Shown piece by piece: positions 24,255-45,448 of a DNA stretch of 64,000 bases (the first letter of the stretch is position 1; each line of letters begins with the position of its first letter). The stretch is taken from positions 558,001-622,000 of the forward strand of contig NZ_JACHIU010000001.1 in assembly GCF_014207705.1 (NCBI RefSeq). The letters are read 5' to 3'. Source of the stretch: Sphaerisporangium rubeum. GTDB lineage: Bacteria; Actinomycetota; Actinomycetes; Streptosporangiales; Streptosporangiaceae. Made by a program: the position numbers and the translations under genes. Under the pieces are notes generated by a model. It searched no databases. It had not been told where the DNA came from and saw only the letters and a program-made list of their open reading frames with translations.

Positions 24255-24290
24255 CCGTTTCTCCGACAGATCCGACAGAAAGGCATCGGC

Positions 24291-25961: not shown

Positions 25962-26001
25962 GATGGGCCCATCCAGCGGAGGATCAGGACAAGGAGGAGT
26001 G

Positions 26002-27633: not shown

Positions 27634-27670
27634 TCCGGCCCGTGACGTCCGGGTTGACGTGCGTACACGA

Positions 27671-27708
27671 TGAGCGGCGCCCCCGGAGTGGTCCGCCGGC
27701 GCCGCTCA
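27671..27708. terminator. Bidirectional terminator between converging operons
   Basis: A perfect 11-base stem TGAGCGGCGCC/GGCGCCGCTCA with a 16-base loop lies in the 90-base gap between the ends of the PltD-like gene (plus strand) and the flavin reductase gene (minus strand). No T-tract. Confidence 0.7.
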
Positions 27709-27723
27709 CGTCGTGGCACAGGG

Positions 27724-29786: not shown

Positions 29787-30922
29787 AGGTGGAGCTCCCT
29801 CGCGATGAGCTGTCGTTGGATGTCCGAGGTGCCGGAGAAGATCACTGAGGGGATCGCGTCCCGCAGCGCCGTCTCGACGCCGTCGCCGCGCAGGTAGCCG
29901 CGGGCGCCGAACAGGCGGACGGCGTCGAGGGTGCTCTGGAGCACCCCCTCCGACACCGAGAGCTTGGACAGGGCGGTCGCCAGGGTCGCCGGTTCACCCT
30001 GGTCCATCAGCCAGCACGCCCGGTACAGCAGCAGGCGGGAGCTCTCCACGCGCAGCACCATGTCGGCGATCCGGTGTGACACCGCCTGGAAGCGGGAGAT
30101 AGGCGCGCCGAACTGGCGCCGGTCACGGGTGTGCCCGGTGACCTGCTCGAGGACCCGGTCGGTCAGCCCCAGGTAACCGGCGAACAGACAGGCCCGTTCC
30201 CAGTCCATGGACCGCTGGAAGATAGGGCCGCCTTGCCCTGGTTCGCCGAGCACCCGCTCGTCGGATACGAAGCAGTCCTCGAAGCGGACCCGGCCCGCCA
30301 GGCAGTCGTGCAGCCCCATCTTCTCCATCGGGGGGCCGACGTGGACGCCGTCGGCGCTCCGGTCCACCACGAACGCCGTCTGCCCGAGATACCCGGCCTC
30401 AGGGTGGGTGGTGACGTAGGTCAGGAACACGTCGGCGATCGGGCCGTTGCTGACGAAAGACTTCTCGGCACTGATCACCCAGCCGCCGTCCACCCGCCGC
30501 GCTGTGCCCGCCAGCCGGGACACATCCGACCCGGCGTCCTCCTCGGTCATCGCGTTGCCCGCCACCAGGGCCCCGGAGATCAGGCCGGGCAGCAGGCGGT
30601 CGCGCAGCTCGGCGGCGCCGAACTCGGCGATCGGCATCGAGCAGGCGAACAGGTGTGCGCTCGCCCCGAACACCAGCCCGGTGTGCGGGCAGGCGCGGCC
30701 GAGCGCCTCGAACAGGCGTGCGGTGTCCAGCGCGCCGAGCCCCAGCCCGCCGTAGCCGACCGGCAGGCTCGCGCCGAGTACCCCCAAGGTGCCCAGCCCC
30801 AGCCAGCTCTCCCGCGCGCCGCCCAACGGCTCCGCGGTGTGCGTGCGCGCGCACAGATCCCGGGCCCGCGCCAGCAGGTCGTCATAGCGCGCGGACTGTT
30901 CCCCGGTCCAGCCGAAGTCCAC
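29783..30922 (-). CDS. Prolyl-carrier protein dehydrogenase (PltE-like acyl-CoA dehydrogenase)
   Basis: A 379-residue flavoprotein of the acyl-CoA dehydrogenase fold: AMTEEDAGSDVSRL and the FVSNGP segment bind flavin, DRRQFGAPISRFQAVSHRIADM is the family signature, and the C-terminal FSGTSDIQRQLIAREL fits PltE/RedW types. These enzymes oxidise prolyl-S-carrier by four electrons to pyrrolyl-2-carboxyl-S-carrier. GTG start 30922 follows AGGAGGC. The downstream neighbour is the adenylase that loads the substrate. Confidence 0.9.
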   Translation of the reverse strand: MDFGWTGEQSARYDDLLARARDLCARTHTAEPLGGARESWLGLGTLGVLGASLPVGYGGLGLGALDTARLFEALGRACPHTGLVFGASAHLFACSMPIAEFGAAELRDRLLPGLISGALVAGNAMTEEDAGSDVSRLAGTARRVDGGWVISAEKSFVSNGPIADVFLTYVTTHPEAGYLGQTAFVVDRSADGVHVGPPMEKMGLHDCLAGRVRFEDCFVSDERVLGEPGQGGPIFQRSMDWERACLFAGYLGLTDRVLEQVTGHTRDRRQFGAPISRFQAVSHRIADMVLRVESSRLLLYRACWLMDQGEPATLATALSKLSVSEGVLQSTLDAVRLFGARGYLRGDGVETALRDAIPSVIFSGTSDIQRQLIARELHL

Positions 30923-30968
30923 CGTGCCTCCTGTTCTCCGCTTCTCCGTGCGGTCTTCTCCGGTGCGG

Positions 30969-32279
30969 TCAGCGCACCGACATGGCCGACACCGGCATCC
31001 CGGCGTCGATCCGCAGGTCCGGCTCGGCCGGCGAGGCGGCGGCGCGGCGCAGCATCACCGTCAGCAGGGGAGAGGCCATGGCGGTGGTGACCACGGCCAT
31101 CACGACCATGGCGCTGAAGAGTTGGTTGTTGAGCAACCCCAGCTCCAGGCCGACGTTGAGGATCACGAGCTGGGTCAGCCCACGGGTGTTCATCAGCAGC
31201 CCCAGCGCGACCGAGGCATTCGTGCTCATCCCGCTGAGCCTGGCCGGCAGCGCCACCCCGCCGAGTTTCCCCAGGCACGCCACCGCGACGATGGCCAGCG
31301 TGACCAGCAGGGTCATGCCGGTGAGCCGGGTCAGGTCCACCGACAGCCCGGTGACCACGAAGAACACCGGCATCAGCAGCACCGCGACCCGCTCCAGCGG
31401 AGCCTGCACGGCGGACCTCAGCACCGACGTGGGGGGCCGCGGCATCACCAGGCCGAACATGAACGCCCCGAAGATGGCGTGGATGCCGATCAACGAGGTG
31501 GCGTACGAGGACAGCAGCACCCCGGCGGTGGTCACCATGGCCAGCCACGGCCGGGAGGACGGGCCGGTGCGCTCGTACGCGTATGCCAGCAGGGGGCGTA
31601 CCACCCACCACATGCCGGCGACGTAGACCGACGACCAGGCCAGCACCAGGCCGAAACCACTCAGGCCGGTGGCCGACACGAGAGCGACGACCACCGCCAG
31701 CGCCGACCAGGCGATCACGTCGTCGGCGGCCGCCATCGCCATCGCCATCGTCCCTATCCGGGTGGCCTGCATCCGGTGCTCGGCGATGATCCGGGCCAGC
31801 ACGGGAAAGGCCGTGACGGCCATCGCGACGCTCAAGTAGAGAACGAACCCCGGCATGGCGATCCGCTTCCCGTCCACCACGTTGTACGACGGGTACAGCC
31901 ACCAGGCCAGCGCCAGGCCGAGCAGCATCGGCGTGACCATCGACGACAGCCAGATCAGGCCGACGCTGCGCCGCCGCCCACGCAACGAGGACGGGTCGAA
32001 CTCCCAGCCGACGACGAACAGGAACAACAGCACGCCGACCTGTGCCACCACCGACAGGTGCGAGCGCAGCGCCGGCGGGAACACCACCTCGGTGAGGTCG
32101 CCGGGCAGCAGTCCCAGCACGCTTGGACCGAGCATGATCCCCGCGATGATCTCCCCGATCACGGCCGGCTGTCGCAACCGTCGGGCGAGGAGGACGACGC
32201 CGGTCACGACCAGCAGGATCAGTCCGATGCCGGCGAGCGTCGTCATGATCTGCCATTCCGCGTCCTGCGGCTTTGACAC
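30969..32279 (-). CDS. Cation:proton antiporter, CPA2 (KefB/GerN-like) family
   Basis: A 436-residue membrane protein with about 12 hydrophobic helices. RQPAVIGEIIAGIMLGPSVLG at the N-terminus and the ADDVIAWSALAVVVAL helix, with the conserved DD-type acidic residues, are hallmarks of CPA2 exchangers. GTG start at 32279. It lies 46 bases downstream... of nothing on this strand but just upstream of the prolyl dehydrogenase gene, so it may lead that operon. Antiporters occur in several secondary-metabolite clusters; a role in export or pH balance here is a guess. Confidence 0.82.
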   Translation of the reverse strand: MSKPQDAEWQIMTTLAGIGLILLVVTGVVLLARRLRQPAVIGEIIAGIMLGPSVLGLLPGDLTEVVFPPALRSHLSVVAQVGVLLFLFVVGWEFDPSSLRGRRRSVGLIWLSSMVTPMLLGLALAWWLYPSYNVVDGKRIAMPGFVLYLSVAMAVTAFPVLARIIAEHRMQATRIGTMAMAMAAADDVIAWSALAVVVALVSATGLSGFGLVLAWSSVYVAGMWWVVRPLLAYAYERTGPSSRPWLAMVTTAGVLLSSYATSLIGIHAIFGAFMFGLVMPRPPTSVLRSAVQAPLERVAVLLMPVFFVVTGLSVDLTRLTGMTLLVTLAIVAVACLGKLGGVALPARLSGMSTNASVALGLLMNTRGLTQLVILNVGLELGLLNNQLFSAMVVMAVVTTAMASPLLTVMLRRAAASPAEPDLRIDAGMPVSAMSVR

Positions 32280-32506
32280 GGCAACTCCCTGTCTTGTCCG
32301 GAGTCCTCGTCGGTCACCCGGTGCGGTGCGCGGCCCCAGGCGACCGGTGCGGCCTCGGCGCGACTCTCCGCGACCGTGCTTGAGATCCGGTCAAGCGAGG
32401 CGCCGGGCCTTCGATTCGAGGCAACTTCCACCGGAGGCGCATACATGTGTCTCGCAGGCGGCCGTCACGCCGCCGGTGGACACCGCGAAGGAGAGGAGTG
32501 AGCCGA

Positions 32507-33814
32507 ATGCGGCGGATCCTGGTCGCCACCACCCCCGGTGAGGGCCACGTGAACGGCATGGTGGAGGTCGCCCGTGCTCTCGTCCAGGCCGGGCACACCG
32601 TGCGCTGGTACACCGGACGAGCGTTCCGAGGAAAGGTCGAGTCGACCGGCGCCGAATACGTGCCGATGCGCCATGGCCTGGACTGGGGCGGCAAGACCCG
32701 GGAGGAGGCGTTCCCCCACCACGCCGGGCTCACCGGCGTCGCCAGCATGACCGCGGCCTTCCGCGACATCTTCTTCCGCCCGGCCTACGGGCAGATGATC
32801 GACATCCTGGCGGTCCTGGACGAGTACCCAGCCGACGTGATCGTCACCGGGGAGACCATCTTCGGGGCCTGCTTCGCCGCCGAACGCCGTGGCGTGCCGA
32901 TCGCCTGGGTCGCCACCTCCATCTACATCTTCGGCAGCCGCGACACGGCGCCGCTGGGCCTCGGCCTGCCGCCGAGCTCCTCGCCGGCGGGCCGGCTGCG
33001 CAACCGCGTGCTCAAGGTGGCCTCGCGCAATCTGCTCGGCCCGTTACGGGAGCTGCGCAGGGAAGCCGATGTGACCCGGTCGCGCGCCGGGTTGCGGCCC
33101 ATCCCCAAGGGCCCGTTCGAGAACATCGTGGACCCGCCGGATCTGTACCTCATGGGTACGGTGCCGTCCTTCGAGTACCCGCGCAGCGACATGCTGCCGC
33201 AGACACACTTTGTCGGCCCGTTCGTCGGCCCTCCACCCCAGGGGTTCGACAAGCCCGCCTGGTGGGGTGAGCTGGACGGCGGCCGCCCGGTCGTGCACGT
33301 CACCCAGGGCACCGTCGCCAACGACGCCGACCGGCTGCTGGTGCCGGCGCTGCGAGCGCTCGGTGACATGGACGTGCTGGTCGTGGCCACCACCGGCGTC
33401 CCACCCGAGTCCCTCGGCCTCGGTCCGCTGCCGGCGAACGTCCGGCTGGAGCGCTTCGTCCCCCACTTCGAGCTGTTGCCCCACGTGGACGTCATGGTGA
33501 CCAACGGCGGGTACGGCGGGGTGAACACCGCGCTGTCTCATGGTGTCCCGCTGGTGGTCGCGCCGGCCTCGGAGGAGAAGCACGAGGTGGCGGCCCGGGT
33601 GTCCTGGTCCGGGGTCGGCATAGGTCTGCGGCGGCAGGCGCTGACCGCCGCCGGGCTGCGGTCGGCCGTCGACACGGTACTGACCGAGCCGTCCTACCGC
33701 CGGCGGGCCCAGACGGTGCGCGAGGAGTACCGCAGGCACGACGGGCCGCGACAGGCGGTCCGGCTCATCGAACGACTCGCCCTGACCGACGGCCGCTTCT
33801 CCGGTGACGGCTGA
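32507..33814 (+). CDS. prlH: Glycosyltransferase, probable N-glycosyltransferase joining sugar or cyclitol to the pyrrole nitrogen
   Basis: A 435-residue GT-B glycosyltransferase of the macrolide/MGT type: N-terminal RRILVATTPGEGHVNGM (acceptor domain) and C-terminal donor site FVPHFELLPHVDVMVTNGGYGGVN then SHGVPLVVAP. Start ATG 32507 lies 8 bases after GAGGAG; GTG 32498 is an alternative. It is followed 28 bases later by the GalT-like gene. I recall that in the published pyralomicin cluster prlH is the N-glycosyltransferase whose disruption abolished production, transferring glucose or the cyclitol. The symbol is given on that recollection. A TTA codon is in frame at 33044-33046. Confidence 0.83.
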   Translation: MRRILVATTPGEGHVNGMVEVARALVQAGHTVRWYTGRAFRGKVESTGAEYVPMRHGLDWGGKTREEAFPHHAGLTGVASMTAAFRDIFFRPAYGQMIDILAVLDEYPADVIVTGETIFGACFAAERRGVPIAWVATSIYIFGSRDTAPLGLGLPPSSSPAGRLRNRVLKVASRNLLGPLRELRREADVTRSRAGLRPIPKGPFENIVDPPDLYLMGTVPSFEYPRSDMLPQTHFVGPFVGPPPQGFDKPAWWGELDGGRPVVHVTQGTVANDADRLLVPALRALGDMDVLVVATTGVPPESLGLGPLPANVRLERFVPHFELLPHVDVMVTNGGYGGVNTALSHGVPLVVAPASEEKHEVAARVSWSGVGIGLRRQALTAAGLRSAVDTVLTEPSYRRRAQTVREEYRRHDGPRQAVRLIERLALTDGRFSGDG

Positions 33815-33842
33815 GCACCTCCACGACACGAAGGAGACGGTT

Positions 33843-34940
33843 GTGAAGAAGACCGTGACCCAGATGCCCGACGGACGCCGGCTCATCTACTATGACGTCC
33901 GCGACGACGTGGCACGGGACGAGGTCGACGCGCGTTACGCCACGCGGGCCGTGACCACCTCGGAGGTGCGCTACGACCCGCTGCGCGGCGAATGGGTGCT
34001 GATCGCCGCACACCGCCAGGGACGCACCTACCAGCCACCGTCCGACGAATGCCCGCTGTGTCCGTCACCGGCCGGGCACAGCGAGATCATGGCGGCCGGT
34101 TACGACGTGGTCGTCTTCGAGAACCGTTTCCCCTCCCTCACGGGGCACGGCGGCCCGGACGCGCTGAGGGCCGTCCAGGGCCTGCGCGCGCCGGGCCGTC
34201 ACTGGGAGTCGGCACCGAGCGCGGGCCGGTGCGAGGTCATGTGCTTCAGTTCCGACCACGAAGCCTCCTTCGCAGACCTCCCGCCGGCCCAGGTCGCGCT
34301 GGTCCTTGCGGCGTGGACCGACCGCACCGCCGAACTGTCGCGGACGCCGGGTGTCGAGCAGGTGTTCCTGTTCGAGGACCGCGGCAAGGAGACCGGCATG
34401 AGCTTGGTACACCCACACGGTCAGATCTACGCCTACCCGTTCGTCACCCCGCGCACCGAGCGCGTGCTCGCCGCCGTGGCGGCTCATCGGGACCGCACCG
34501 GCCGCAATCTCTTCGACGACCTGTTGGCGACGGAGTCGCGCGGTGAGCGGGTGGTGATCCAGGGACGGCACTGGACGGCGTTCGTGCCGAACGCCGCGCA
34601 CTGGCCCTACGAGGTGCATCTGTACCCGCGCAGGCGGGTGCCGGACCTGACGGCGCTGGACGACGACGCTCGTGCCGAGTTCCCCGATCTCTACCTGGAC
34701 CTGCTGCGCCGCTTCGACAGGCTGTTCGGCGCGGAGCCGGGCCCCGTACCGTACATCTCCGCCTGGCTGCAGGCCCCGGTCGCGGCACCCGAGGACTTCG
34801 CCCTGCACCTGGAGCTGTTCACCGTGCGCCGCAGCCCGGTCAAGCTCAAGCACCTGGCCGGGTCCGAGCTGCTCATGGATGTGTACGTCAACGAGATCGC
34901 GCCGGAGGCCGCGGCGGCCCGGTTGCGCGAGCTGGGCTGA
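33843..34940 (+). CDS. Galactose-1-phosphate uridylyltransferase-family protein, probable cyclitol nucleotidyl carrier
   Basis: A 365-residue HIT-superfamily protein of the GalT type. The active-site motif VHPHGQIYAYPF holds the nucleophilic His; zinc-type cysteines are in ECPLCP; an N-terminal RYDPLRGEWVLIA matches GalT. GalT swaps UMP between UDP-glucose and a sugar 1-phosphate. Next to a glycosyltransferase in a cyclitol cluster it may make UDP-cyclitol from cyclitol 1-phosphate, a job done by the unrelated ValB in validamycin. GTG start follows AAGGAG by 6 bases. A purely galactose-salvage role is less likely because no galK or galE is adjacent. Confidence 0.85.
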   Translation: MKKTVTQMPDGRRLIYYDVRDDVARDEVDARYATRAVTTSEVRYDPLRGEWVLIAAHRQGRTYQPPSDECPLCPSPAGHSEIMAAGYDVVVFENRFPSLTGHGGPDALRAVQGLRAPGRHWESAPSAGRCEVMCFSSDHEASFADLPPAQVALVLAAWTDRTAELSRTPGVEQVFLFEDRGKETGMSLVHPHGQIYAYPFVTPRTERVLAAVAAHRDRTGRNLFDDLLATESRGERVVIQGRHWTAFVPNAAHWPYEVHLYPRRRVPDLTALDDDARAEFPDLYLDLLRRFDRLFGAEPGPVPYISAWLQAPVAAPEDFALHLELFTVRRSPVKLKHLAGSELLMDVYVNEIAPEAAAARLRELG

Positions 34941-34960
34941 GGAGCCCACGGCACGTGAAC

Positions 34961-34997
34961 GCGCGCGGGCCGGCCGGGTGACGGTCGGCCCGCGCGC
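34961..34997. terminator. Bidirectional terminator
   Basis: A 15-base stem (14 Watson-Crick pairs and one G-T) GCGCGCGGGCCGGCC/GGTCGGCCCGCGCGC with a 7-base loop, between the converging GalT-like and methyltransferase genes. It is exceptionally GC-rich. Confidence 0.7.
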
Positions 34998-35025
34998 GCC
35001 GGCCGGAGGACTCCCGGGTGGAGCG

Positions 35026-35859
35026 TCAGCCGCTCCGCAGCCGGCCGTTGCCCTTGAGCACGACATAGCCGAACTCGGGCAGCGCGGCGTACCGGTCGGT
35101 CAGACCGGCCATCTCCTCCAGCCGGTCCGCGCCGACGATCGGCCCGAGAGTCCCGCGGGCGGCGCGGACGGCGGCGGCGTGCTGCGACATGGACGGCCGC
35201 ACCTGGTCGCTGATGTCGATGACCTCGGTCAGGTCCAGTCCGGAGACGGTGAACTCGCGCGCGTACTCGTCGATCTCGGTCAGCGTCACCAGGTTGCAGG
35301 CGGCGGAGAACCGGTCCACCAGATCTCGGTGCCGCTCGGGGACCGGGGCGCGCAGCGCGAAGTCGGCGATGACCACCGACCCGCCGGGGCGCACCACCCG
35401 GGCGATCTCCCTCAGCGCACGGCCCCGGTCGGGCATGTGGTGCAGGACCTCCAGACACATGACCGCGTCGAAGGACGCGTCGGGGAACGGCAGGTCCATG
35501 GCGTCGGCGGTCTGGAAGGACACCCGGCTCGGCAGCGAGACGCTGGTCAGGGACGCGTTGGCGATCTCGATCTGCTGCTCGCTGATCGACACGCCTACGA
35601 CGTCGACCTTGCGCTCGCGGGCCAGTCGCAGCGCGGGCCTGCCGATCCCGCACCCGACGTCCAGGACGCGATCGCCCGGGTCCGCCCGCAACGCGCTGAT
35701 GACCTCCCCGGTCAGGCGCTCCGTCGCCTCGGTGATCGAGGGAGCGGCGTCAGGCGTCTCCCAGTAGCCCATGTGGAGATTCCCGTCCCACGCCTGGACG
35801 TAGGGGTCGGTGACATCGTCGTAGAACTTCCCGATCTCGTCTGCGGTCTGTCGGCTCAT
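35026..35859 (-). CDS. SAM-dependent methyltransferase, probable O-methyltransferase
   Basis: A 277-residue class I methyltransferase. Motif I is VLDVGCGIGRPALRLA near residue 66, followed by DAMDLPFPDASFD and RPGGSVVIADF. It resembles cyclopropane-synthase-like small-molecule O-methyltransferases (RifMT27-like). Some pyralomicins carry an O-methyl on the sugar or cyclitol, and this is the only methyltransferase in the cluster, so it is the best candidate. It is transcribed leftward toward the terminator at 34961-34997. Confidence 0.87.
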   Translation of the reverse strand: MSRQTADEIGKFYDDVTDPYVQAWDGNLHMGYWETPDAAPSITEATERLTGEVISALRADPGDRVLDVGCGIGRPALRLARERKVDVVGVSISEQQIEIANASLTSVSLPSRVSFQTADAMDLPFPDASFDAVMCLEVLHHMPDRGRALREIARVVRPGGSVVIADFALRAPVPERHRDLVDRFSAACNLVTLTEIDEYAREFTVSGLDLTEVIDISDQVRPSMSQHAAAVRAARGTLGPIVGADRLEEMAGLTDRYAALPEFGYVVLKGNGRLRSG

Positions 35860-35964
35860 GAGTCGTCAACCTCGATGTCGGAGGGGTACACGGCTCCCCC
35901 GCACGCTAGGGACGTGGACTCGAGCCGAGCTTGAACACGTGGGTCACGACACCTGTCCGTAGGC

Positions 35965-37440
35965 CTAACAGTCCGCGTCCTGACCGCGCGCTCGGCCGCC
36001 GTCGCCTACCGGCTCCCACACCGGAGCGCCGACCTCCCGCACCCGGCCGTCCGCGGCGAAGTGCAGGTAGCGGGTGAAGTCGGCGGTGAACCATCGGTCG
36101 CTGGTGATCGCGACGATCGGACCGGGAAAGTCGCGCAGGGCGCGCTGCAGTGCGTCGGCGCTGACGGTGTCCAGATCGCGGGTGGGCTCGTCGAGCAGGA
36201 GCAGGTCGGCGTGGGCCAGTTCGAGCAGCAAGATCTGTAATCGGGTGCGCTGGCCGACCGTCAGGGTGTCGAACGTCTGACGCCAGGCGTTGGCCATCGC
36301 GTAACGGTCGAGTGCCGCCATGGCCTCGTCACGGCCGAGCCGGTAGTCGCCGGCGACGATGTCACCCACGCTCCTGCCGTCCAGGTCGGGACGGACACCG
36401 CCCGGAGTGAAGTGACCGGGCCACACGCCTGGGCTCAGGTCCACGACGCCTGTGAACGGGATCGTGGGCTCGCGCGGACCGGCCGACTCGGTGATCAGCC
36501 GCAGGAACAGCGACTTGGCGGTGTCGTTGGGGCCGACCACGGCGATTCGCTCACCGGGGTGGGCCACCAGCTCGAACGGCTCGGTCAGCCCGGTGAGTGC
36601 CAGGCGGCGGCAGGCGAGCGTGCGCTCGCCGTGCCGCGCGGGCGAGGAAGGCCGCGTACCCGGAAGGCCGTGCCGGCGGGTGACCCCCCGGCTGCCGGCG
36701 AACGTGGCGTACCCGCCGACGTGTACCCGCACGCCGCCGTTCTCCACCGAGATGATGCGGTTGGCGGCGTTGGCCAGGAGCTGGCGGTCCCGGGACACCA
36801 GAAGGATCGTCTTGGGACTGACACGGAGCTGGTCCTCCAGCAACTCCTTGCCGCGCACGTCGAAACCGTCGTCCGGCTCGTCGAGCAGCAGTAGTTGCTC
36901 GGTCCCGTGCAGCAGCGTCTCCAGCGCGAGCCGTTTGCGGTCGCCGCATGACAGCGTGGTCAGTGCGTGGTCGGCCACCTGCTCGAAGGGCAGGCCCAGC
37001 ACGTTCCTGGCGCACACGTCCCAGATCGCTTCCAGCTCGTACCCACCGGAGTCATAGTGGTCGGTCAGCGCTCGCGCGTGGCGCGTCCGGGTCCTCTCGT
37101 CGTCGCGGGTGACCAGGGACGCCTCGGCGGCGGCCAAGGTGGCGGCGGTGGCCCGCACCTTGGGTGGAGCGATGCTGAAGAGCATGTCGCGCACGGTACG
37201 GTGGCCGCCTGCCGCGCCGGTGGAACGGCGCATGAAGCCGATGCCGCCGTGGACGCCGATCCGGCCGGAGGCGGGCCGCAGATCGCCCGCGATCAGCCGC
37301 AGCAGCGTCGTCTTGCCCGCACCGTCCGGGCCGACCAATCCGGCGGTGAGACCCTCACCGACGTGGAACGACACCCCTGCCAGCAGGGGACGTCCGTCGG
37401 GCATGGCATAGGAAAGGCCGGTTACGCGCACGTCTCCCAC
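35965..37440 (-). CDS. Degenerate ABC-F family protein (pseudo-ATPase candidate)
   Basis: A 491-residue homologue of the ABC-F protein at 6565-8193 that keeps the two-cassette layout but has lost much of the inter-domain linker. Cassette 1 retains Walker A GPDGAGKTT, but its signature is LSCGD (about 163) and its H-loop is VSRDR (Arg217 for His). Cassette 2 has Walker A GPNDTAKS (303-310, Ala for Gly), signature LTVGQ (about 393) and SDRW with Ser447 for the H-loop His. Both Walker B DEP motifs remain. The frame is intact. Normal ATP cycling seems unlikely. GTG start overlaps the MFS stop codon (TAGTG), so it is coupled to the exporter. Confidence 0.87.
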   Translation of the reverse strand: MGDVRVTGLSYAMPDGRPLLAGVSFHVGEGLTAGLVGPDGAGKTTLLRLIAGDLRPASGRIGVHGGIGFMRRSTGAAGGHRTVRDMLFSIAPPKVRATAATLAAAEASLVTRDDERTRTRHARALTDHYDSGGYELEAIWDVCARNVLGLPFEQVADHALTTLSCGDRKRLALETLLHGTEQLLLLDEPDDGFDVRGKELLEDQLRVSPKTILLVSRDRQLLANAANRIISVENGGVRVHVGGYATFAGSRGVTRRHGLPGTRPSSPARHGERTLACRRLALTGLTEPFELVAHPGERIAVVGPNDTAKSLFLRLITESAGPREPTIPFTGVVDLSPGVWPGHFTPGGVRPDLDGRSVGDIVAGDYRLGRDEAMAALDRYAMANAWRQTFDTLTVGQRTRLQILLLELAHADLLLLDEPTRDLDTVSADALQRALRDFPGPIVAITSDRWFTADFTRYLHFAADGRVREVGAPVWEPVGDGGRARGQDADC

Positions 37441-38921
37441 TAGGAGAGCCCTTCTCGGGAGGCCTCCGGCCCTGGTGCGACGGCGGGCCGGCGCGTCCTC
37501 AGCATGACCGCGGCGATCAGCGCCGTCACGGCGACGACCGTGACGGCGACGATCAACGCGATGTCGAACCCGTGCACGGTGGCGCGAAGCGTCGCGCCGG
37601 GATGTGTGGCCAGGTAGGTGCCCGCGGCGGCGGTGGCGATCGTGTTGAGGAGCGCGGTACCCACCGACCCGCCGAGTTGCTGGACCACGTTGACCGTGGC
37701 CGAGGCCACACCCGCGTCGTCGGGATCCACCCCGGCCGTGGCCATGCTGATGGCCGGGGCGATCACGCATCCCAGCCCGAGGCCGATGAGGAGTTCCGCG
37801 GGCAGGAGACGCGTGAGGTACACACCGGGCCCTCCGGCACCGAGGCCGATCATGAGCGCGATACCGGCCGCCATCATCAGCAACGCGGGGACGATGATCG
37901 CGCGTGGGGACAGCCGGGGTGCCAGTACACCGCTGATGGCGGTGGAACCGATGCCGATGGCCAGCGACAGCGGCAGGAACGCCAGCCCGGTTCGCAGTGG
38001 GCTGTAGCCGAGGACGCCCTGCAGGTAATAGGTGAGGAACAGGAAGAAACCGAACATGGAGATCTGTGGGAGGCCCAGCACGAGGAAGGCCCCGGCGCGG
38101 GTGCGGTCGCTCACCACCCGCAGCGGAAGCAGCGGACGCGTGGTGCGCCTCTCGTGGAGTACGAACCCCACCATCAACAGCAGCCCGGCGGCCAGCACGG
38201 CCAGCACCACCGGGTCGGACCAGCCGTGGTCGGCCATGTCCGAGAAGGAGAACACGACGGCGAGCATGCCAAGCACGCTCAGCGCCGTCCCGGGCAGGTC
38301 CAGTGAGATCGCGCCGGACGCGGGTGCGTCGGACGGAAGGAGGACCGCGCGCGCGAGGACGAGAGCAGCGATCGGCAGGTTGATCAGCAGGCACCAGTTC
38401 CAGGACAGGTACTCGGTCAGCAGCCCGCCGACAAGCAGTCCGACCGCGGCACCCACACCGGTGAGCGCGCCGAACACCCCGAAGGCCATGCCGCGCTCGC
38501 GCGGCTCGACGAACATGGTGGAGATCAGCGACAGCGCCGCCGGGGCCAGAACGGCCGCGAAGGCTCCTTGAGCGGCGCGGCCGACGAACAACAGGTCCGC
38601 GGTGGAGGCCATCCCGGCGATCCCCGAGGCGATCGCGAACCCCACCAGGCCGCCGATGAAGGCGCGTTTCTGCCCGAACCGGTCCGACACCCGGCCGCCG
38701 ATCAGCAGCAGCCCGCCGAACGCCAGCGCGTAGGCGGTCACCACCCATCCGCGCGCCGCGTCCGACAGGCCGAGATCGGACTGGACCGACGGCAGCGCGA
38801 TGTTGACCACCGTCGAGTCCAGAACCACCATGAGCTGCGCTGCACCGGCGGTCGCCAAGGCCCACCAGCGCGCCGTCGCTCGAGGCGCGCTCGCCGGCGG
38901 GGACCCCTGGGTAATCTCCAT
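37440..38921 (-). CDS. MFS exporter, DHA2 (EmrB/QacA) family
   Basis: A 493-residue protein with about 14 predicted helices: LMVVLDSTVVNIALPSVQ (motif D1 of DHA2), GRVSDRFGQKR (motif A), and GVFGALTGVGAAVGLLVGG (motif C). It probably exports the cluster product by proton exchange. I chose ATG 38921, which follows AGGAAG by about 4 bases; an upstream ATG at 38969 would put the tandem repeat at 38933-38970 inside the coding region. It overlaps the degenerate ABC-F gene by one base. Confidence 0.87.
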   Translation of the reverse strand: MEITQGSPPASAPRATARWWALATAGAAQLMVVLDSTVVNIALPSVQSDLGLSDAARGWVVTAYALAFGGLLLIGGRVSDRFGQKRAFIGGLVGFAIASGIAGMASTADLLFVGRAAQGAFAAVLAPAALSLISTMFVEPRERGMAFGVFGALTGVGAAVGLLVGGLLTEYLSWNWCLLINLPIAALVLARAVLLPSDAPASGAISLDLPGTALSVLGMLAVVFSFSDMADHGWSDPVVLAVLAAGLLLMVGFVLHERRTTRPLLPLRVVSDRTRAGAFLVLGLPQISMFGFFLFLTYYLQGVLGYSPLRTGLAFLPLSLAIGIGSTAISGVLAPRLSPRAIIVPALLMMAAGIALMIGLGAGGPGVYLTRLLPAELLIGLGLGCVIAPAISMATAGVDPDDAGVASATVNVVQQLGGSVGTALLNTIATAAAGTYLATHPGATLRATVHGFDIALIVAVTVVAVTALIAAVMLRTRRPAVAPGPEASREGLS

Positions 38922-38932
38922 GTGGCTTCCTA

Positions 38933-38970
38933 GAACGTTGGACTGGTAATCGAACATTGGTCGAGTCATC
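38933..38970. repeat. Two 19-base tandem direct repeats upstream of the MFS exporter
   Basis: GAACGTTGGACTGGTAATC (38933-38951) is followed immediately by GAACATTGGTCGAGTCATC; 14 of 19 positions agree. The pair ends 49 bases upstream of the exporter start and is AT-richer than its surroundings. Adjacent direct repeats of about two helical turns suit a regulator that binds head to tail (SARP or response regulator). The function is inferred. Confidence 0.45.
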
Positions 38971-39515
38971 GATCAACGTACTAGGCTGTGTTCCAGGCAC
39001 GCAATCGGTTCCGCCGTACGTGTCGGCACGGGGCCTTCACCGGGCTCCGGACGCCTCGCCTGGCTGCCGGCCCGGAGGTCCCCACAGCCTCCGGGCCGGT
39101 GCCTGCGTGCGGCGGACCCGCGTGCGGCCCGTGGATCTTCTCCATGGCGCAGGCGCCGCGGGGAATTCCTGAAGATCGGATGTCGATACGGGACGGAGGT
39201 CGGCTGCCGTGAACCGGGTGGCCCTGCACGGAACAGTTCTGGAGGAAGGTCCGGTGGATGGCGGTCGTCCCGCCGGCATCTTCCGATAACGAAATTCTCC
39301 GGAGGTGACCCACTCCCACTGACCACAAAAAGAACACAGATCCCGCCATGCCGCCTGGTCGCTCTACTGATCGTCCGTCAGGCGGAAACTCGGCATATCA
39401 TCACGCGGTTACCCTGTGTAAGTACGTTGGCCCGTGCCGTTCAATACCGACATAATGACTACGGTCATCCGAAAATGTTCATCTGACAAGGGCGAAGTAC
39501 TTCAGTCATGGCGGG
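38971..39515. other. Non-coding spacer upstream of the LuxR-type regulator
   Basis: No convincing gene was found. Short open frames here have coding statistics unlike their neighbours. The stretch from about 39270 is markedly AT-richer than the rest of the window and leads to the promoter at 39516. An AATTCTCCGGAGG segment near 39292 looks like a ribosome site but no open frame follows it. Confidence 0.5.
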
Positions 39516-39544
39516 TTGACATCGATGCGTCCTATATCTAGTCT
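39516..39544 (+). promoter_or_regulatory. Housekeeping-sigma-type promoter for the LuxR-type regulator
   Basis: A perfect -35 TTGACA (39516-39521), then a 17-base spacer and -10 TAGTCT (39539-39544), matching the actinomycete consensus well. The start of transcription would fall near 39551, leaving a leader of about 230 bases before the chosen start codon, or a near-leaderless message if ATG 39556 is used. Confidence 0.6.
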
Positions 39545-39780
39545 CGCATCAGATCATGGACAGGCATGACAGACGCAATTACCGGGCCGGTTCATATTCG
39601 TATCAAGAACATCGATTCCGGCCGCCACGCCGACGTGCGCTGTCACCGGATATGCTCACGGACGGTGTACGCGGCCCACGAAGTGCTGGGCCGGCGCGGG
39701 TGTCGATAATCGAGATGGGGGTCGACCTCAGGCTGTCGAGCGCTCGGGTGCCGGCTCATATCGACGTGGTGGGGGAGCGG

Positions 39781-40422
39781 ATGTTCAGCGTTATGCTGGC
39801 GATGGAATTGCAAATGATCCGGGACGCGTTCTCCGCGATACTGGAAATGGATTCCGACCTGACCGTGGTAGGCGAGGCCGACCGGGCGGAGACCGTGCTG
39901 CGCACGGCCCAGCGCTGCCGTCCGGACGTGGTCGTGCTTGACGCCGACATGACCGACGGGTCGGCGATCACCGTCGCGGCCGATCTGCACCGGCACATGC
40001 CCGCCTGCCGTACGCTGCTGATCGCGGCGCGTAAGTCACCCGAACTGCTACGTCGCGCGATGAAGGCCAGCGCCTCTGGGCTGCTCCTGAAGGACTCCCC
40101 GGCCGGCGACCTGGTGAACGGCATCAAGGTGGTCGCCTCGGGTGAGCAGATCGTGGACCAGGAGCTGGCCATCGCGGCGCTCAACGCGCGGCCGAACCCG
40201 CTGACCCCGCGTGAGGTGGACGTCCTGGTCCTGGTGTCGGCGGGTGCCGAGCCCACCGAGATCGCCAAGCGTCTGGACCTGCGGGTCGGCACCGTGCGCA
40301 ACTACCTGGCGACCATCGTCACCAAATTGGAGGCCCGCAACCGCGTGGACGCGATCCGCATCGCCGACGAGTCCGGATGGCTGCTCCCGGCGGTCGACCC
40401 CGTGCTGCCCGACGCCTGCTGA
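39781..40422 (+). CDS. LuxR/NarL-type response regulator with atypical receiver
   Basis: A 213-residue protein. The receiver part (1-120) keeps the phospho-acceptor position in VVVLDADMTDG and the lysine in LLLKDSP, but the N-terminal acidic pair is replaced (MLAMELQMIRDAF where VLLADDHALVREGL is usual). The C-terminal LuxR helix-turn-helix is intact: LTPREVDVLVLVSAGAEPTEIAKRLDLRVGTVRNY. No sensor kinase is adjacent, so it may act without phosphorylation, as in other atypical cluster regulators. The start is uncertain: the frame is open to ATG 39556, but that part has poor third-position GC and no family homology. Confidence 0.8.
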   Translation: MFSVMLAMELQMIRDAFSAILEMDSDLTVVGEADRAETVLRTAQRCRPDVVVLDADMTDGSAITVAADLHRHMPACRTLLIAARKSPELLRRAMKASASGLLLKDSPAGDLVNGIKVVASGEQIVDQELAIAALNARPNPLTPREVDVLVLVSAGAEPTEIAKRLDLRVGTVRNYLATIVTKLEARNRVDAIRIADESGWLLPAVDPVLPDAC

Positions 40423-40441
40423 ACCGGCGCGTGCCGCCTGA

Positions 40442-40455
40442 CCCGCGTACGCGGG
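40442..40455. terminator. Short perfect palindrome between converging genes
   Basis: CCCGCGTACGCGGG, a 14-base perfect palindrome, lies in the 37-base gap between the ends of the regulator gene and the NUDIX gene. It may act as a terminator hairpin, although the loop would be minimal. Confidence 0.35.
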
Positions 40456-40459
40456 ACCG

Positions 40460-41017
40460 TCAGCGCGCCGCGCGCCGGATCCGGTCGAGCAGCGTGAGCG
40501 CGGCCAGCGACAGCGCGTCGACGAACCGGCCCTCCACCACCATCCGGTCCAGTTCCACCTCACTCACCCAGCGCTGGCGCATGTCGGACTCGGTGGCCTC
40601 GCGCTGCGGACGCCCCTGGGTGAAGCCCTCCGCAAGGAACACGTGGCATCGCTGGCTGGAGTAACCGTGGGCGACGTGGACTCGTCCCAGGTACTGGAAC
40701 GAGGCCGCGACGAGCCCCGTCTCCTCCCGCAGTTCGGCCGCCGCCAGCGACGCCGGATCAGGACCGGGGGTCTGCGCCGCGTGGCCGTCCTCAGCCGGCC
40801 AGGAACCTTGGGGGAACTCCCAGAACCGGTCCGCGACGGGGTAGCGGAACTGTTCGACGATATGAAACCCGTTGTTCTCGGCAGGCACGACCAAGGCGAA
40901 GTCCTGTTTGTCGACGACGCCGTACAGGCCGATGGAACCGTCCGGCAACTCGACATCGTCCTCGCGCACCGACATCCAGGCGTTCTGGTACACCAGCCGC
41001 GAGCGGACCCTCTGCAC
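40460..41017 (-). CDS. NUDIX hydrolase (ADP-ribose pyrophosphatase-like)
   Basis: A 185-residue protein from GTG 41017, which follows GGAGGT by 6 bases. The NUDIX box ends AAAELREETGLVAAS, with an insertion after the leading glycine region EFPQGSWPAEDG. The N-terminus (YQNAWMSVREDDVELPDGS) resembles ADP-sugar pyrophosphatases such as NudF. It cleaves nucleoside diphosphates linked to another group. It lies downstream of the cyclitol synthase on the same strand with a 118-base gap, so it could act on a nucleotide-cyclitol, or be unrelated. Confidence 0.82.
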   Translation of the reverse strand: MQRVRSRLVYQNAWMSVREDDVELPDGSIGLYGVVDKQDFALVVPAENNGFHIVEQFRYPVADRFWEFPQGSWPAEDGHAAQTPGPDPASLAAAELREETGLVAASFQYLGRVHVAHGYSSQRCHVFLAEGFTQGRPQREATESDMRQRWVSEVELDRMVVEGRFVDALSLAALTLLDRIRRAAR

Positions 41018-41135
41018 GCCTACCTCCGGGCACTGTAGGTGATCTCCGTCGCACCAGCGTACGTCCCGGGCCGCCGCGGCGCAGGCGCGCGGAACACCGG
41101 TCGCGAACTCCGCCGCGTGGCGGGGAGGCCATCCC

Positions 41136-42362
41136 TCAGACGGCGATGTCTTTCCTGAGATGACCGAGGCGGCGCAGTTCGGCCAGCGCGGCGTCCAGTT
41201 CGGGACCGGTCAGGTCCTCAACGAAGCGTGCCTGTCCCAAGCCGACCGGAAGCGGCAGTCGCTGGTGACCGTCGCGATGCCGTACGGTCTCCTGGAGCGC
41301 GGCCCCGATCAGCGCGGGACTGCACACCGGATGCCAGGACGGCAACCGCATCGCGCGCATCACCTCCATGATCCGCTCCTGTTGCACCCCGGTCAGCCAG
41401 CCTCGCCGCCGGGCGATCACCGTGCATAACGCCATGTCCACGCTCACTGCCTCCCCGTGGTACAGCTCCGGCAGCGCCTGCATCTCGATGGCCGGGGAGA
41501 AGGAGTGGCCGTAGTCGACCAGCCGGCTGAGCCGGTGCTCCCACAGGTTGGGCTGGAGTTCGGCCAGCATGCCCTGGATGGCCCGGCGCATGACCTCCTC
41601 CGCGCACACCCCGTCGTCCATGCTGCCATGGGCCTGCATCCGCTCGGCGATGAGCCGCTCGCCGTGTGCCTCCAGCAGTTCGAGCAGCGCCTCGTCCTTG
41701 ACCAGGGCGACCTTCAGGATCTCGGCGAGCCCGTTGGCGATGTGCCGGCGACTGAGCGTGTGCAGGAAGCGCCGGTCGATCAGCGTGGCGACGGCCGGGT
41801 GGTAGGCACCCAGGCGGTTCTTGCGGTGGCCCAGATTCACCCCCGTCTTGGCGCCGACACCCGCGTCCACCATGCCCATCAAGGTGGTCGGCACCCGCAC
41901 ATGCGGGGTCGCGCGCCGGTAGAGACTGCAGGCCAGCCCGACCACGTCGGTCAGGACGCCGCCGCCGACGGCGATCACCGGCTCGGCCCGGCGGACGATG
42001 CCGAACGCGTCCATGGCCGCGACCACGGTCATCACCGTGTCCATGGTCTTGACCTGCTCGTGTGCCTCGATCACCAGGATCTCGTGCCGCACTCCCTGCC
42101 CGGTGAAGTACGCGTTGATCTCCTGGCCGTACAACTCGTACACCGTGCTCTCGACGACGACGAGGCGGCGCGCCACCCTCGGCTGCTCTGGCGCTCCGGC
42201 GTCGGCGAGGGTCGGGTCGGCCGGATCGAGAAGACCGGGGTGTACCCGCACCTCGTAGCTCACCGGCTGCCTGGTGGTCAGGCGCCACCACGGCCCGGAC
42301 GCCCCGTCGGAGGCCAACAGCCCCTGCTCGGCCGTGTGGTCGACCTGTGCTGATCCCGGCAT
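41136..42362 (-). CDS. prlA: Sugar phosphate cyclase: 2-epi-5-epi-valiolone synthase
   Basis: A 408-residue dehydroquinate synthase-superfamily enzyme. It has the NAD-binding GGGVLTDVVGLACSLYRR and the signature DAGVGAKTGVNLGHRKNRLG, in which AGVGAKTGVN replaces ASVGGKTGIN of dehydroquinate synthases; this is the EEVS pattern. Metal ligands are expected in the GLAEILKVALVKDE and YGHSFSPAIE segments. It cyclises sedoheptulose 7-phosphate to 2-epi-5-epi-valiolone, the first step to C7-cyclitols. I recall PrlA of the pyralomicin cluster being confirmed as such a cyclase. ATG 42362 follows GGGAG; GTG 42386 is an alternative. Confidence 0.88.
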   Translation of the reverse strand: MPGSAQVDHTAEQGLLASDGASGPWWRLTTRQPVSYEVRVHPGLLDPADPTLADAGAPEQPRVARRLVVVESTVYELYGQEINAYFTGQGVRHEILVIEAHEQVKTMDTVMTVVAAMDAFGIVRRAEPVIAVGGGVLTDVVGLACSLYRRATPHVRVPTTLMGMVDAGVGAKTGVNLGHRKNRLGAYHPAVATLIDRRFLHTLSRRHIANGLAEILKVALVKDEALLELLEAHGERLIAERMQAHGSMDDGVCAEEVMRRAIQGMLAELQPNLWEHRLSRLVDYGHSFSPAIEMQALPELYHGEAVSVDMALCTVIARRRGWLTGVQQERIMEVMRAMRLPSWHPVCSPALIGAALQETVRHRDGHQRLPLPVGLGQARFVEDLTGPELDAALAELRRLGHLRKDIAV

Positions 42363-42567
42363 GACGCTCCCTTGCCCGCCCTCCACCGGGCGGTCTGCTC
42401 GCGTGGAATACCTTCTGGCGCCGGACCCGGCGGAGCCGGGACGGCGGCTGACACAAGGGAGCCTCCGCGTGGCTGCTCAAATCCAACTCGACCCGCACGG
42501 TCCACCGGCGCTCCAGTGGCGCCTGCCTAGGCTCGCGTGGCCTGTCACCTACGGGAGGGAGCCGGTC
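42363..42567. promoter_or_regulatory. Divergent promoter region of the cyclitol genes
   Basis: A 205-base gap between the leftward cyclase gene and the rightward kinase-dehydrogenase operon. A TAGGCT at 42531-42536 could be a -10 for the rightward operon, with GGGAGGGA before the GTG start of the kinase. No clear -35 or operator was seen. Confidence 0.3.
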
Positions 42568-43581
42568 GTGTCGCAGCCGATCGTGGTGCTGGACGTGGGG
42601 GGTACCCACTTCCGCTGGGCCACCTGGAGCCGGGACGGCGGCCTCGGCCAGATCCGGCAGGTGCCGACACCCAGCGTCGCGAACGGGACGGCCGGGCCGG
42701 TGGAGGAACTGCGCGCGCGGCTGGTGGCGATGATGGCCGAGGCCGTGCCGCACGGCGGCGTGGCCGGGGTGTCCTTCGGTGCGGCGCTGGACCACCGCTC
42801 AGGCACCGTCTACGCCTCCGCCCCGCTGTGGGGAGCCTGCACCCGTCCGTTCGACCTGATGGGTGCGCTGTCGGCGGCCCGGCCCGACGTACGCTGGCAT
42901 GTCGTCAACGACGTGACCGCGGCCCTGCGCCATCTGGCGGCCGGGCCGGTCGGCCGGGATCGCCGCAAACTGCTGCTGGTCACGGTCAGCACCGGCGTCG
43001 CCTGCCGTGTGCTGGACCTGCGCAGCGGCCTGATCCCGGTGGACGGCTGCGGGCTGCAGGGGGAGATCGGGCACCTGCCCGCGGCGACGTCCGTCGCGGG
43101 TGGTCCCGTGGAGCTGTGCTGCGACTGCGGCGGGAGCAACCATGTGGCGTCCTTCTCCTCAGGGCCGGGCCTTCGGCGGCTGGCTGGTGTGCTGCGCGAC
43201 CGCGACCCGCGTGGCTGGGACGCCGGCCCCCTGGCCGGCCCCGCGCCGTTCGGGCAGGCGCTGGTCAGCGCGCTGGACGCGGGTGATCCGGTGGCCGGGG
43301 AGCTGACGCGCGCGGCGACCTCGCCGATGGCCGACGTGACGCGCACCGCGCTCTGCTTGGATCCCGAGCTGGACATGGTGGCGTTCACCGGTGGGGTCGC
43401 GACCGCGCTTGGCGGCCACTATCGGGCGGCGCTGCTGGGGCACCTCGGGGACCAGGGCCTCTACCTGACCAGCGGACTGGCCCCGGCCTGGGTCGCGGAG
43501 CGCCTGCTGGTCTGCGCGCGCGGGGAGGCCGACTGCCTGGTCGGCGCGGGGATGGCGGCCGAACAGGCGTGGGTGTCGTGA
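42568..43581 (+). CDS. ROK-family kinase, probable C7-cyclitol kinase
   Basis: A 337-residue ROK protein from GTG 42568, placed 7 bases after GGGAGGGA. It has the ATP motif VLDVGGTHFRWATW near residue 8, the substrate/metal motif GLQGEIGHLP with the catalytic-site His, and a CDCGG segment in place of the usual CxCGxxGC zinc motif, so the zinc site is altered. ValC of validamycin, a valienone/validone 7-kinase, is also a glucokinase-like ROK member. It probably phosphorylates the cyclitol. It begins a four-gene operon in which every junction overlaps (GTGA, ATGA, GTGA). Confidence 0.82.
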   Translation: MSQPIVVLDVGGTHFRWATWSRDGGLGQIRQVPTPSVANGTAGPVEELRARLVAMMAEAVPHGGVAGVSFGAALDHRSGTVYASAPLWGACTRPFDLMGALSAARPDVRWHVVNDVTAALRHLAAGPVGRDRRKLLLVTVSTGVACRVLDLRSGLIPVDGCGLQGEIGHLPAATSVAGGPVELCCDCGGSNHVASFSSGPGLRRLAGVLRDRDPRGWDAGPLAGPAPFGQALVSALDAGDPVAGELTRAATSPMADVTRTALCLDPELDMVAFTGGVATALGGHYRAALLGHLGDQGLYLTSGLAPAWVAERLLVCARGEADCLVGAGMAAEQAWVS

Positions 43582-44690
43582 CCGGCACACATCGGGCCAT
43601 CGTCCGCGACGGTGGGTCACCGTACCTGGCGCCGCGGCTCACCGCCGAGCCTGGGCCCGGCGAGCTCAGCGTGGCGGTGGAGGTGGCCGGACTGTGCGGT
43701 ACCGATATCCAGATGCTGCGCGGACTGCGGGACGACGCCGCCGCGGTCATCGGCCACGAGGGAACGGCCCGGGTGGTCCGTGCCGGGCCAGGTGTGGACC
43801 TGGCGCCGGGGACCACGGTGGTCGTCAACCCCACCCACCCCGGCGATCCCTCATTCCTTCTCGGCCATACCGTGGACGGACTGTTCCAGGAACGGGTGCT
43901 CATTCCCGCGTCCGCGGTCACCGGCGGACTGGTGCTCCCCCTGGACGAGGGCCGCACACCGGAACTCGCGCTGGCCGCCCTGCTGGAGCCGCTGGCCGTG
44001 GCGCGCTACGCGCTGGAGATGCTCGGCCGGTTCGCACCCGCCACGTTGCTGGTCGTCGGCGACGGCACCGTCGGGCACCTGGCCGTCCGGGCGGCGCGTC
44101 ACCGTCTCGGCCGCACGAGAATCGCGCACGTCCATCACACCGCGGCAGGGCTCGCGTGGAGCGCCGGCCGCGCCGGCCGTGCCGACGTGCTGCTCCAGGC
44201 CGGCGACCTGGAAAGGTTCCGGCCGGAGGGGGGAGTGATGTGCGTGCTGCTGGCCACCCCGCGCGATGCCACCGTCCTCATGCTGGAGAAGGTGCTCGCG
44301 CTCGGGGCCGACGTGGTGGATCTGGTCGGCGGAGTGCCGGCCGGCGCGGCGACTCCGCTGCTGCCGGGTGTCGACCTGGCAGGTGTGCGCGCGGCCAACT
44401 GCGCGGGTGTCCCGGCCGAGCCCGAGATGACGTTCGCGGTGACCGCGACCGGACGGCGGGTGGTGCTGTGCGGGCACCGGGGTGTGGCGAACCGGCATCT
44501 GGCCGAGGCCGCCGCGGAGCTGACGGCCGCGCCGTGGCGCTACCGGGACCTGGTGACCCACGAGACCGGCCTCACCGGCGCGGTCGCCGTCATGCGCACG
44601 CTGGCCGGGTCGGCCGGCCGGACGATCGAGGGCAGGCGGCTGGTGAAGCTCGCGGTGCGAATCGGCGCGGAGCGGAGGGAGCGGCGATGA
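43578..44690 (+). CDS. Zinc-type medium-chain dehydrogenase, probable cyclitol oxidoreductase
   Basis: A 370-residue MDR-family protein. Catalytic zinc ligands are visible in GLCGTDIQ (Cys) and GHEGTARVV (His-Glu). The cofactor motif is VVGDGTVGHLAV. The structural-zinc loop with four cysteines normally near residues 95-110 is missing: that stretch reads NPTHPGDPSFLLGHTVDGL and has no cysteine. It probably oxidises or reduces a ring hydroxyl of the cyclitol. Overlaps the kinase by GTGA; a GTG nine bases upstream is a second possible start. Confidence 0.8.
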   Translation: MTGTHRAIVRDGGSPYLAPRLTAEPGPGELSVAVEVAGLCGTDIQMLRGLRDDAAAVIGHEGTARVVRAGPGVDLAPGTTVVVNPTHPGDPSFLLGHTVDGLFQERVLIPASAVTGGLVLPLDEGRTPELALAALLEPLAVARYALEMLGRFAPATLLVVGDGTVGHLAVRAARHRLGRTRIAHVHHTAAGLAWSAGRAGRADVLLQAGDLERFRPEGGVMCVLLATPRDATVLMLEKVLALGADVVDLVGGVPAGAATPLLPGVDLAGVRAANCAGVPAEPEMTFAVTATGRRVVLCGHRGVANRHLAEAAAELTAAPWRYRDLVTHETGLTGAVAVMRTLAGSAGRTIEGRRLVKLAVRIGAERRERR

Positions 44691-45448
44691 GCGGTCTGCT
44701 GGAGGGCCCCCTGAGCGGCCGGAGGGCACTGGTGGTCGGTGGTTCGGCCGGGATCGGACGTGCGGTCGCGCAGGCGTGGGCCGACGCGGGAGCCGATGTC
44801 GTCGTGTGCAGCCGCAGCGAGCCCTGCGGTGCTCGCTCGCTGCGCTGGCGGCACCTGGACCTCACCGACACGGGGCGGGCTCGCGCGGTCTTGGCCGAGC
44901 AGGGGGCGGGACCGCTGCACCTGGTGTGCTACTCGGCGGTTCACTACGGCTCCGGACGCGCCCCCTTCCGGGAGGTCGCCGAGGAGGAGTGGCGCCGCCA
45001 GGTCGAGGTGAACGTCACCGGGCTGTGGCTCACGCTGGCCGCGACTTTGCCCGCGCTGCGCCGTGCGGCTCCCGGCCTGCTGCTCGGGGTGTCCTCCGAG
45101 GTCGCCTTCAACGCCGGGCCGGGCCGGAGCGGGTACGCCGCTTCCAAGGCCGCCGCCAAGTCGCTGCTGGACTCGGTGGCTCAGGAGGAGGACCCGGCGG
45201 ACGTGCGGATCGTGCAGATACTGCCCGAGGGCATGGTCGACACCCCGGGGATCCGCAGGCGCAGGCCGGCTGGTTTCGACTACGCCGCCTACATGCGTCC
45301 GGAGGCGTTCGCGCAGGTGGCGGTTCGGCTCGGTGTGACCCGCGGGTCACGGCACCACGGTGACAGCCTGGTCATCGGTCAGGACGGCACATGGTGGTCG
45401 GCCGGCGATCGCGCGCCGCGCTCGCAGAGCCGGCCGGTGACGACGTGA
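44687..45448 (+). CDS. Short-chain dehydrogenase/reductase
   Basis: A 253-residue classical SDR: cofactor motif ALVVGGSAGIGRAVA near residue 13, catalytic Ser in LLGVSSEVAF and Tyr-Lys in SGYAASKAAAKS. The usual NAG motif region reads CYSAVHYG. It probably works on a cyclitol ketone or alcohol in the same pathway as the preceding dehydrogenase. ATG overlaps the previous stop (ATGA). Confidence 0.85.
   Translation: MSGLLEGPLSGRRALVVGGSAGIGRAVAQAWADAGADVVVCSRSEPCGARSLRWRHLDLTDTGRARAVLAEQGAGPLHLVCYSAVHYGSGRAPFREVAEEEWRRQVEVNVTGLWLTLAATLPALRRAAPGLLLGVSSEVAFNAGPGRSGYAASKAAAKSLLDSVAQEEDPADVRIVQILPEGMVDTPGIRRRRPAGFDYAAYMRPEAFAQVAVRLGVTRGSRHHGDSLVIGQDGTWWSAGDRAPRSQSRPVTT

Follow-up and report, generated by a model that had tools for sequence, protein, structure and literature searches.

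What an ABC-F protein may still do once most of its catalytic residues are gone is the question raised by a gene of Sphaerisporangium rubeum, lying within a stretch of 64,000 nucleotides hereafter called the window. The features needed for a job on the ribosome have been lost from the protein, yet the gene is kept in frame, under some constraint, at the end of an exporter gene. The features discussed first are as follows.

35965..37440, minus strand: ABC-F-derived pseudo-ATPase gene, 491 aa, GTG start, TAG stop, 7/10 catalytic motifs altered, linker of 36 aa
36613..36720, minus strand: shortened inter-domain linker of the pseudo-ATPase, residues 241-276, 36 aa (93 aa in 49/49 homologues), residues 254-270 with pLDDT <50
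37440..38969, minus strand: DHA2-type MFS efflux gene, TIGR00711 efflux_EmrB at 232.1 bits (cut-off 230.2), Pfam MFS_1, 75% identical to its orthologue in a second genome (G010)
6565..8193, minus strand: intact ABC-F paralogue, 542 aa if started at the GTG of position 8193 (the frame stays open up to an ATG at 8286), 93-aa linker, complete set of motifs

Motifs, linker and predicted fold

Frame 1 of the plus strand is interrupted by internal stops at 35965-37440; the open frame resides on the minus strand and runs through 491 codons, in agreement with the original prediction of an intact gene. The first base of its GTG is the final G of the TAG of the MFS gene (TAGTG, a one-base overlap), and the gene does start, as had been claimed, inside the exporter stop codon. 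In the product two ABC nucleotide-binding domains stand in tandem, and membrane domains are lacking (two Pfam ABC_tran stretches, no membrane family, fold matches to EttA and ABCF1). Its scores against NCBIfam models of resistance ABC-Fs are far below the cut-offs (NF000355, 179.9 vs. 380; NF000171, 171.4 vs. 800). The paralogue at 6565-8193, correctly described as intact since every motif is preserved in its 542 aa, is also under the same cut-offs (265.6 and 216.7, respectively).

All five motif changes originally listed are present, namely LSCGD and LTVGQ at signatures 1 and 2, VSRDR (H217R) and TSDRW (H447S) at H-loops 1 and 2, and GPNDTAKS at Walker A2, but the count was too low: changes at Q-loop 1 (Q72R) and Q-loop 2 (Q346P) had been missed, and the total is 7/10. 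Catalytic residues are unchanged at Walker A1, B1 and B2 only, and the full set of Walker A/B, Q-loop, signature and H-loop motifs which both NBDs of an ABC-F contain is not found. The altered residues are invariant in 49/49 full-length homologues aligned, loci fetched as best matches by score rather than at random, and the changes thus exceed chance. The homologues include the window paralogue and a third copy from the same genome; the window gene itself (L001), identical proteins, and L023 (genome G003, second half only) are left out of the counts. Motif loss of this extent predicts a protein with no active ATPase.

The linker, its length being taken as the number of residues between fixed alignment columns, is shortened as anticipated, 36 aa vs. 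93 in each of the 49 homologues. The long helical inter-domain linker of ABC-F proteins (PtIM/ARD), the arm of which is pushed toward the peptidyl transferase centre, is thus lacking in the window protein as in its orthologue in G010, where 38 residues are left.

AlphaFold models of the window and G010 proteins have a mean pLDDT of 87.9 and 85.1, respectively, figures favoured toward a good look because the input alignment is mostly made up by intact relatives. Linker and C-terminal tail are the poorly predicted parts of both models, the window linker appearing as a low-confidence coil. The best Foldseek matches by E-value are EttA structures and other ABC-Fs (4fin, 7mu0, 9nl5), for which the TM-score reaches no more than 0.36-0.57 owing to a different placement of the domains; against ATP-bound human ABCF1 the TM-score is 0.63-0.71.

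The retained twin-NBD fold, as modelled, and its EttA-like matches would suit a factor still acting on the ribosome, as E-site binder or decoy, with a short linker and without hydrolysis. Lengths of linker and arm vary indeed among ABC-Fs, according to the part of PMC6723617 drawn on here. Against such a role stands a linker of 36 rather than 93 residues. ABC-Fs bind the ribosome as an ATP-closed dimer (PMC10314930, in excerpt), the formation of which is doubtful for a protein having both composite ATP sites damaged. Moreover, according to PMC5909423, linker shortening abolished protection by VgaA(LC) in vitro, the shortened protein being inactive in inhibition as well, with the caution of the authors that linker deletion may harm the overall structure of the protein. 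By analogy, the armless pseudo-ATPase should not protect ribosomes. A role of this kind is on the whole quite improbable, and among the three functions originally suggested (decoy, sensor or regulator) that of a decoy bound to the ribosome has the lowest likelihood, because the ribosome-reaching linker is gone.

The orthologue in a second species and the constraint on both copies

One of the ten other genomes of the genus has an orthologue of the pseudo-ATPase (G010:C7:71452-72666, locus L009; 404 residues), 59% identical to the window protein over 398 aligned codons. The surrounding regions are syntenic (window 6565-47385 corresponds to G010:C7 42649-83039), and in G010 the gene has the same neighbours, with an MFS gene upstream and the same TAGTG one-base overlap.

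Motifs altered are 7/10 also in G010, and six of them are altered in both copies (both Q-loops, H-loop 1, Walker A2, both signatures). The change is identical in three cases, Q72R, H217R and Gly306->Asp (G306D, in Walker A2); Q-loop 2 and the two signatures were altered to different residues. Loss of the H-loop 2 His and further Walker A2 changes are found in the window copy only. G010 alone features Glu->Asp in Walker B2, Ser->Ala in signature 1, and an in-frame deletion, read from a draft assembly, of some 85 residues from the segment that separates Q-loop 1 and signature 1. The latter removes most of the helical subdomain of the first domain, corresponding to the run of helices predicted at residues 83-155 in the window protein. 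The G010 model still looks folded despite this loss.

Two findings had been named beforehand as adverse to a specific function, homologues with restored motifs and frameshifted pseudogene variants. The former were found in part, the H-loop 2 His being intact and Walker A2 less damaged (GPDDAGKS) in G010, but the H-loop 1 His->Arg change, the alteration of both Q-loops, the Walker A2 Gly->Asp change and the loss of the linker are common to both copies. The latter did not turn up, as neither copy contains frameshifts or stops.

Columns invariant in the family are 234. At 115 of them the two copies are unchanged from the family, and at 17 they agree in a new residue; both are derived but different at 17, one only is derived at 42, and the remainder are deleted in one copy (28) or in both (15), all of these being counts given without a computed null. 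The 17 shared derived columns, invariant in 49/49 homologues, include Q72R, H217R, G306D, and two Q->R changes adjoining signature motifs in both copies (Q168R, Q398R). In the tree the two proteins form one clade (100/100), apart from all 49 homologues on long branches, whose placement is unsure under the midpoint root used. Origin of the pseudo-ATPase by recent duplication of the paralogue at 6565 was considered and rejected, the protein being about equally distant (50-53% identity) from 26 intact homologues. The ancestor was presumably an actinobacterial ABC-F protein, from which the arm, both Q-loops, the first H-loop His and the Walker A2 Gly would most likely have been lost before the two species split.

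No orthologue was detected by a protein scan of a collection of genome contigs, a search reaching close relatives only because its patterns derive from the window protein; the ten loci recovered encode distant ABC proteins (23-35% identity). In the family sample (341 genomes, 280 matching at E <= 1e-60), only the window and G010 genes, among the matches listed, align through the linker into both domains. The order sample (345 genomes, largely the same set) contains five matching genomes at E <= 1e-88 and no further armless form; 29 genomes match at E <= 1e-75 in the class sample (394 genomes), where, among the matches listed, the alignment continues into the second domain for the window gene only. 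The 28 other matching genomes of the phylum sample (217 genomes) all span 43-79 residues beyond the model positions covered, i.e. the linker is present, and in each of seven plasmid records the best place exceeds the query in span by 46 residues or more. These results refer to the matches listed, and very diverged armless relatives may escape searches of this kind. The evidence base for retention is accordingly made up by two sequences from one genus, which limits the case.

Nei-Gojobori dN/dS values were obtained for 19 window-G010 gene pairs, a set that includes the paralogue but neither the two PKS genes nor the final ones (44690-47385). The value for the pseudo-ATPase, 0.446 (bootstrap 0.348-0.561), is the second highest, compared with 0.417 for the ROK gene, 0.412 for the antiporter, 0.307 for the MFS gene and 0.174 for the paralogue, all figures being approximate as synonymous sites are strongly GC-biased. 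The only gene above it is a thioesterase gene at 10957-11778 (0.613). dN is 0.308 in the pseudo-ATPase vs. 0.098 in the intact paralogue, i.e. protein change is about three times faster. By part, dN/dS is 0.37 at residues 1-75, 0.41 at 161-250, 0.67 in the linker stretch (40 codons) and 0.45 in the second domain.

In the simulations the window gene took the place of the ancestral sequence as starting point. At equilibrium GC 0.7-0.9, neutral runs gave a dN/dS of at least 0.81 in 540 cases out of 540, all above the observed value, and full neutrality was rejected. With one lineage neutral and the other held at 0.17 the range was 0.57-0.94 (60 runs), and 0.57-1.03 over 120 runs in which the other was held at 0.17 or 0.30; the low end barely clears the upper bootstrap bound of 0.561, and a lineage dead throughout is disfavoured narrowly. 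Lineages simulated at 0.31-0.45 each reproduce the observed figure. The constraint acting since the species split is judged on these comparisons weak but real, because dN/dS lies below all neutral and all one-lineage-neutral runs; function may have been lost recently in one lineage, or in part of it. Neutral evolution introduced a mean of 1.2-4.9 stops per lineage, and both lineages were stop-free in 0-1/60 runs per setting at GC 0.7-0.8, and in 3-4/60 at GC 0.9. Neither stops, nor frameshifts, nor a neutral pattern mark the two genes as pseudogenes, both frames being open and GC3 high (0.87 and 0.92). A freely drifting pseudogene appears unlikely from these data, as does an ordinary ribosome-protection factor.

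Weakened constraint is also what a relic in slow decay would display, an ABC-F once paired with the exporter which lost its use and now drifts, not yet interrupted. The high dN/dS is in line with this, as are end branches of 1.19 and 1.29 vs. 0.15 and 0.09 for the paralogue pair, and the further lesions by which the two copies differ, among them the removal of much of a subdomain in G010, look like continuing decay. Decay does occur in this group of genes, since a P2-like copy in G003 (L023; G003:C18:117824-118444 and around) is left as a half-length ORF, whose 302 aa match just the linker end plus the second domain, in what appears to be a broken gene. The observed dN/dS is however under all neutral runs, and narrowly under those with one neutral lineage; stop-free frames in both copies, infrequent in the simulations even at GC 0.9, and the high GC3 also speak against it. 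Slow decay is the chief competing explanation and a serious possibility, held with less than even confidence.

Exporter pairing and the biosynthetic cluster

35026..35859, minus strand: SAM-dependent methyltransferase gene, downstream of the pseudo-ATPase after a 105-base gap, order kept in G010
9200..47385, strand both or unstated: pyralomicin-type cluster (Pfam and NCBIfam matches), syntenic in G010

Coupling to the exporter, as originally proposed, holds as far as the genes are concerned, given that TAGTG junction and gene order are conserved in the second species; the pseudo-ATPase may in addition have a direct role on the exporter. The true start of the MFS gene is perhaps about 16 codons further on, as the matching G010 stretch has a TAG at the sixth codon. 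An ABC-F within about 1.5 kb was found at none of 18 other related MFS loci (best-scoring of the matches in 131 genomes), and among the 20 best-scoring loci fetched only those of the window and G010 have an adjoining one. The pairing is thus no general feature of this MFS family.

In both genomes the genes for MFS exporter, pseudo-ATPase and methyltransferase follow one another in the same direction, the last being set off by a gap of about 90-105 bases. The pseudo-ATPase frame might then be a spacer, the openness of which alone is kept since premature stops would be polar on the methyltransferase gene, and the lack of stops is what this would produce. Constraint at the amino acid level, as suggested by dN/dS <1 and by the family residue being shared by both copies at 115 of the 234 invariant columns, is not predicted by it, and a mere spacer is very improbable.

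The cluster includes halogenase-like genes (at 9200, 22512 and 24291), two type I PKS genes, and genes for an AMP ligase and an acyl-CoA dehydrogenase, enzymes by which, as a pair, pyrrole is usually formed. Further members encode a glycosyltransferase, a methyltransferase, a GalT-like protein, an AroB-family cyclase (EEVS-like), a ROK protein, dehydrogenases, and LuxR- and SARP-type regulators. An AroB-family C7-cyclitol synthase accompanied by halogenation, PKS, glycosyltransferase and methyltransferase genes presumably fits the outline of the pyralomicin cluster, and by gene content the cluster matches the pyralomicin type. Between the halogenase-like genes and the AMP ligase gene lies a 556-aa gene (25963-27633) with no Pfam match at 1e-5, 77% identical in G010.

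EEVS-like genes were found in 15/341 genomes of the family, those of the window and G010 included. At 8 of the 13 other EEVS-like loci (about 36-40 kb each, E <= 1e-20), neither exporter, nor pseudo-ATPase, nor halogenases were detected; the ROK/dehydrogenase cyclitol cassette is mostly present at 3/8. In the window this cassette (42274-46284) consists of ROK, dehydrogenase, SDR and TIM-barrel genes. It is found again together with an EEVS-like gene in G261, G265 and, lacking the SDR gene, in G124, the other cluster genes being absent there. The intact paralogue is at the cluster edge, back to back with a TetR-like gene (6565-9066, by eye). Its close relatives reside in genomes without a match to the cluster cyclase (G007, G004, G008), so that it possibly belongs to the chromosomal surroundings and not to the cluster.

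The related pyrrolomycins are protonophores and not ribosome inhibitors, as described in the part of PMC12670696 drawn on here. Should this extend to the product of the cluster, ribosome protection would be of no obvious use to the producer. The observation favours slow decay, one route to which would be a use lost because the product does not act on the ribosome.

The designation of ABC-F pseudo-ATPase is backed by sequence, predicted fold and orthologue. In the reading preferred, at even confidence, the protein derives from an ABC-F, performs no catalysis and has been retained. It would be co-translated with the exporter, within a cluster of the pyralomicin type, and would assist or regulate the exporter/self-resistance unit instead of acting as an enzyme. 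Since the split the protein would have kept its twin-NBD fold, its synthesis tied to that of the DHA2-type MFS exporter; site 1, having Walker A1 and B1 intact, may still bind ATP without turnover, and ribosome protection in the known way would no longer be possible. As catalytic parts and arm were lost and the gene was nonetheless kept intact in two related species, the job taken on may be non-enzymatic. A narrower version, a dead armless ABC-F repurposed as non-ATPase subunit or regulator of the MFS exporter (e.g. holding, gating, sensing nucleotide or drug), is tentative and rather doubtful.

Comparison with known systems

No catalytically dead or armless ABC-F, nor an ABC-F/MFS operon in a producer, was found by title and abstract in the open-licence literature, which does not imply absence from print. 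Degenerate ATP sites are known in ABC proteins such as heterodimeric exporters and CFTR, where H-loop, signature or Walker residues are lost and the fold stays. In those proteins one ATP site remains active and membrane domains are present; in contrast, both composite sites are damaged in the pseudo-ATPase, in which no membrane domain was found. By E-value, its model finds its best fold matches among translation-factor ABC-Fs, EttA included. With the resistance ABC-Fs (TlrC/OleB/CarA group, VgaA, MsrD) it shares two tandem NBDs in one chain, an exporter neighbour in an antibiotic cluster and clear homology, but differs by the 36-aa linker, the 7/10 altered motifs and the low NCBIfam scores.

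In the dispute on how resistance ABC-Fs work, ribosomal protection won over efflux. The matter had long been debated (PMC4807367, in excerpt). A pseudo-ATPase at the service of the exporter would come close, as a genuine example, to the abandoned efflux model, and would be a translation factor turned pseudo-enzyme; if repurposed, it would record an evolutionary passage, within a self-resistance operon, from protecting ribosomes to partnering an exporter. If decaying, the two copies would offer a two-point snapshot of a self-resistance module falling apart. The mefA-msrD operon, in which an MFS efflux gene is followed by an ABC-F gene and the two products act together (PMC10314930, in excerpt), has the same co-directional order, exporter first and ABC-F second, the two genes meeting in the window and in G010 by a one-base overlap. 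MsrD is, in the same excerpts, an active ABC-F under leader-peptide control, whereas the pseudo-ATPase is devoid of key catalytic residues and arm, and starts on the stop codon of the exporter.
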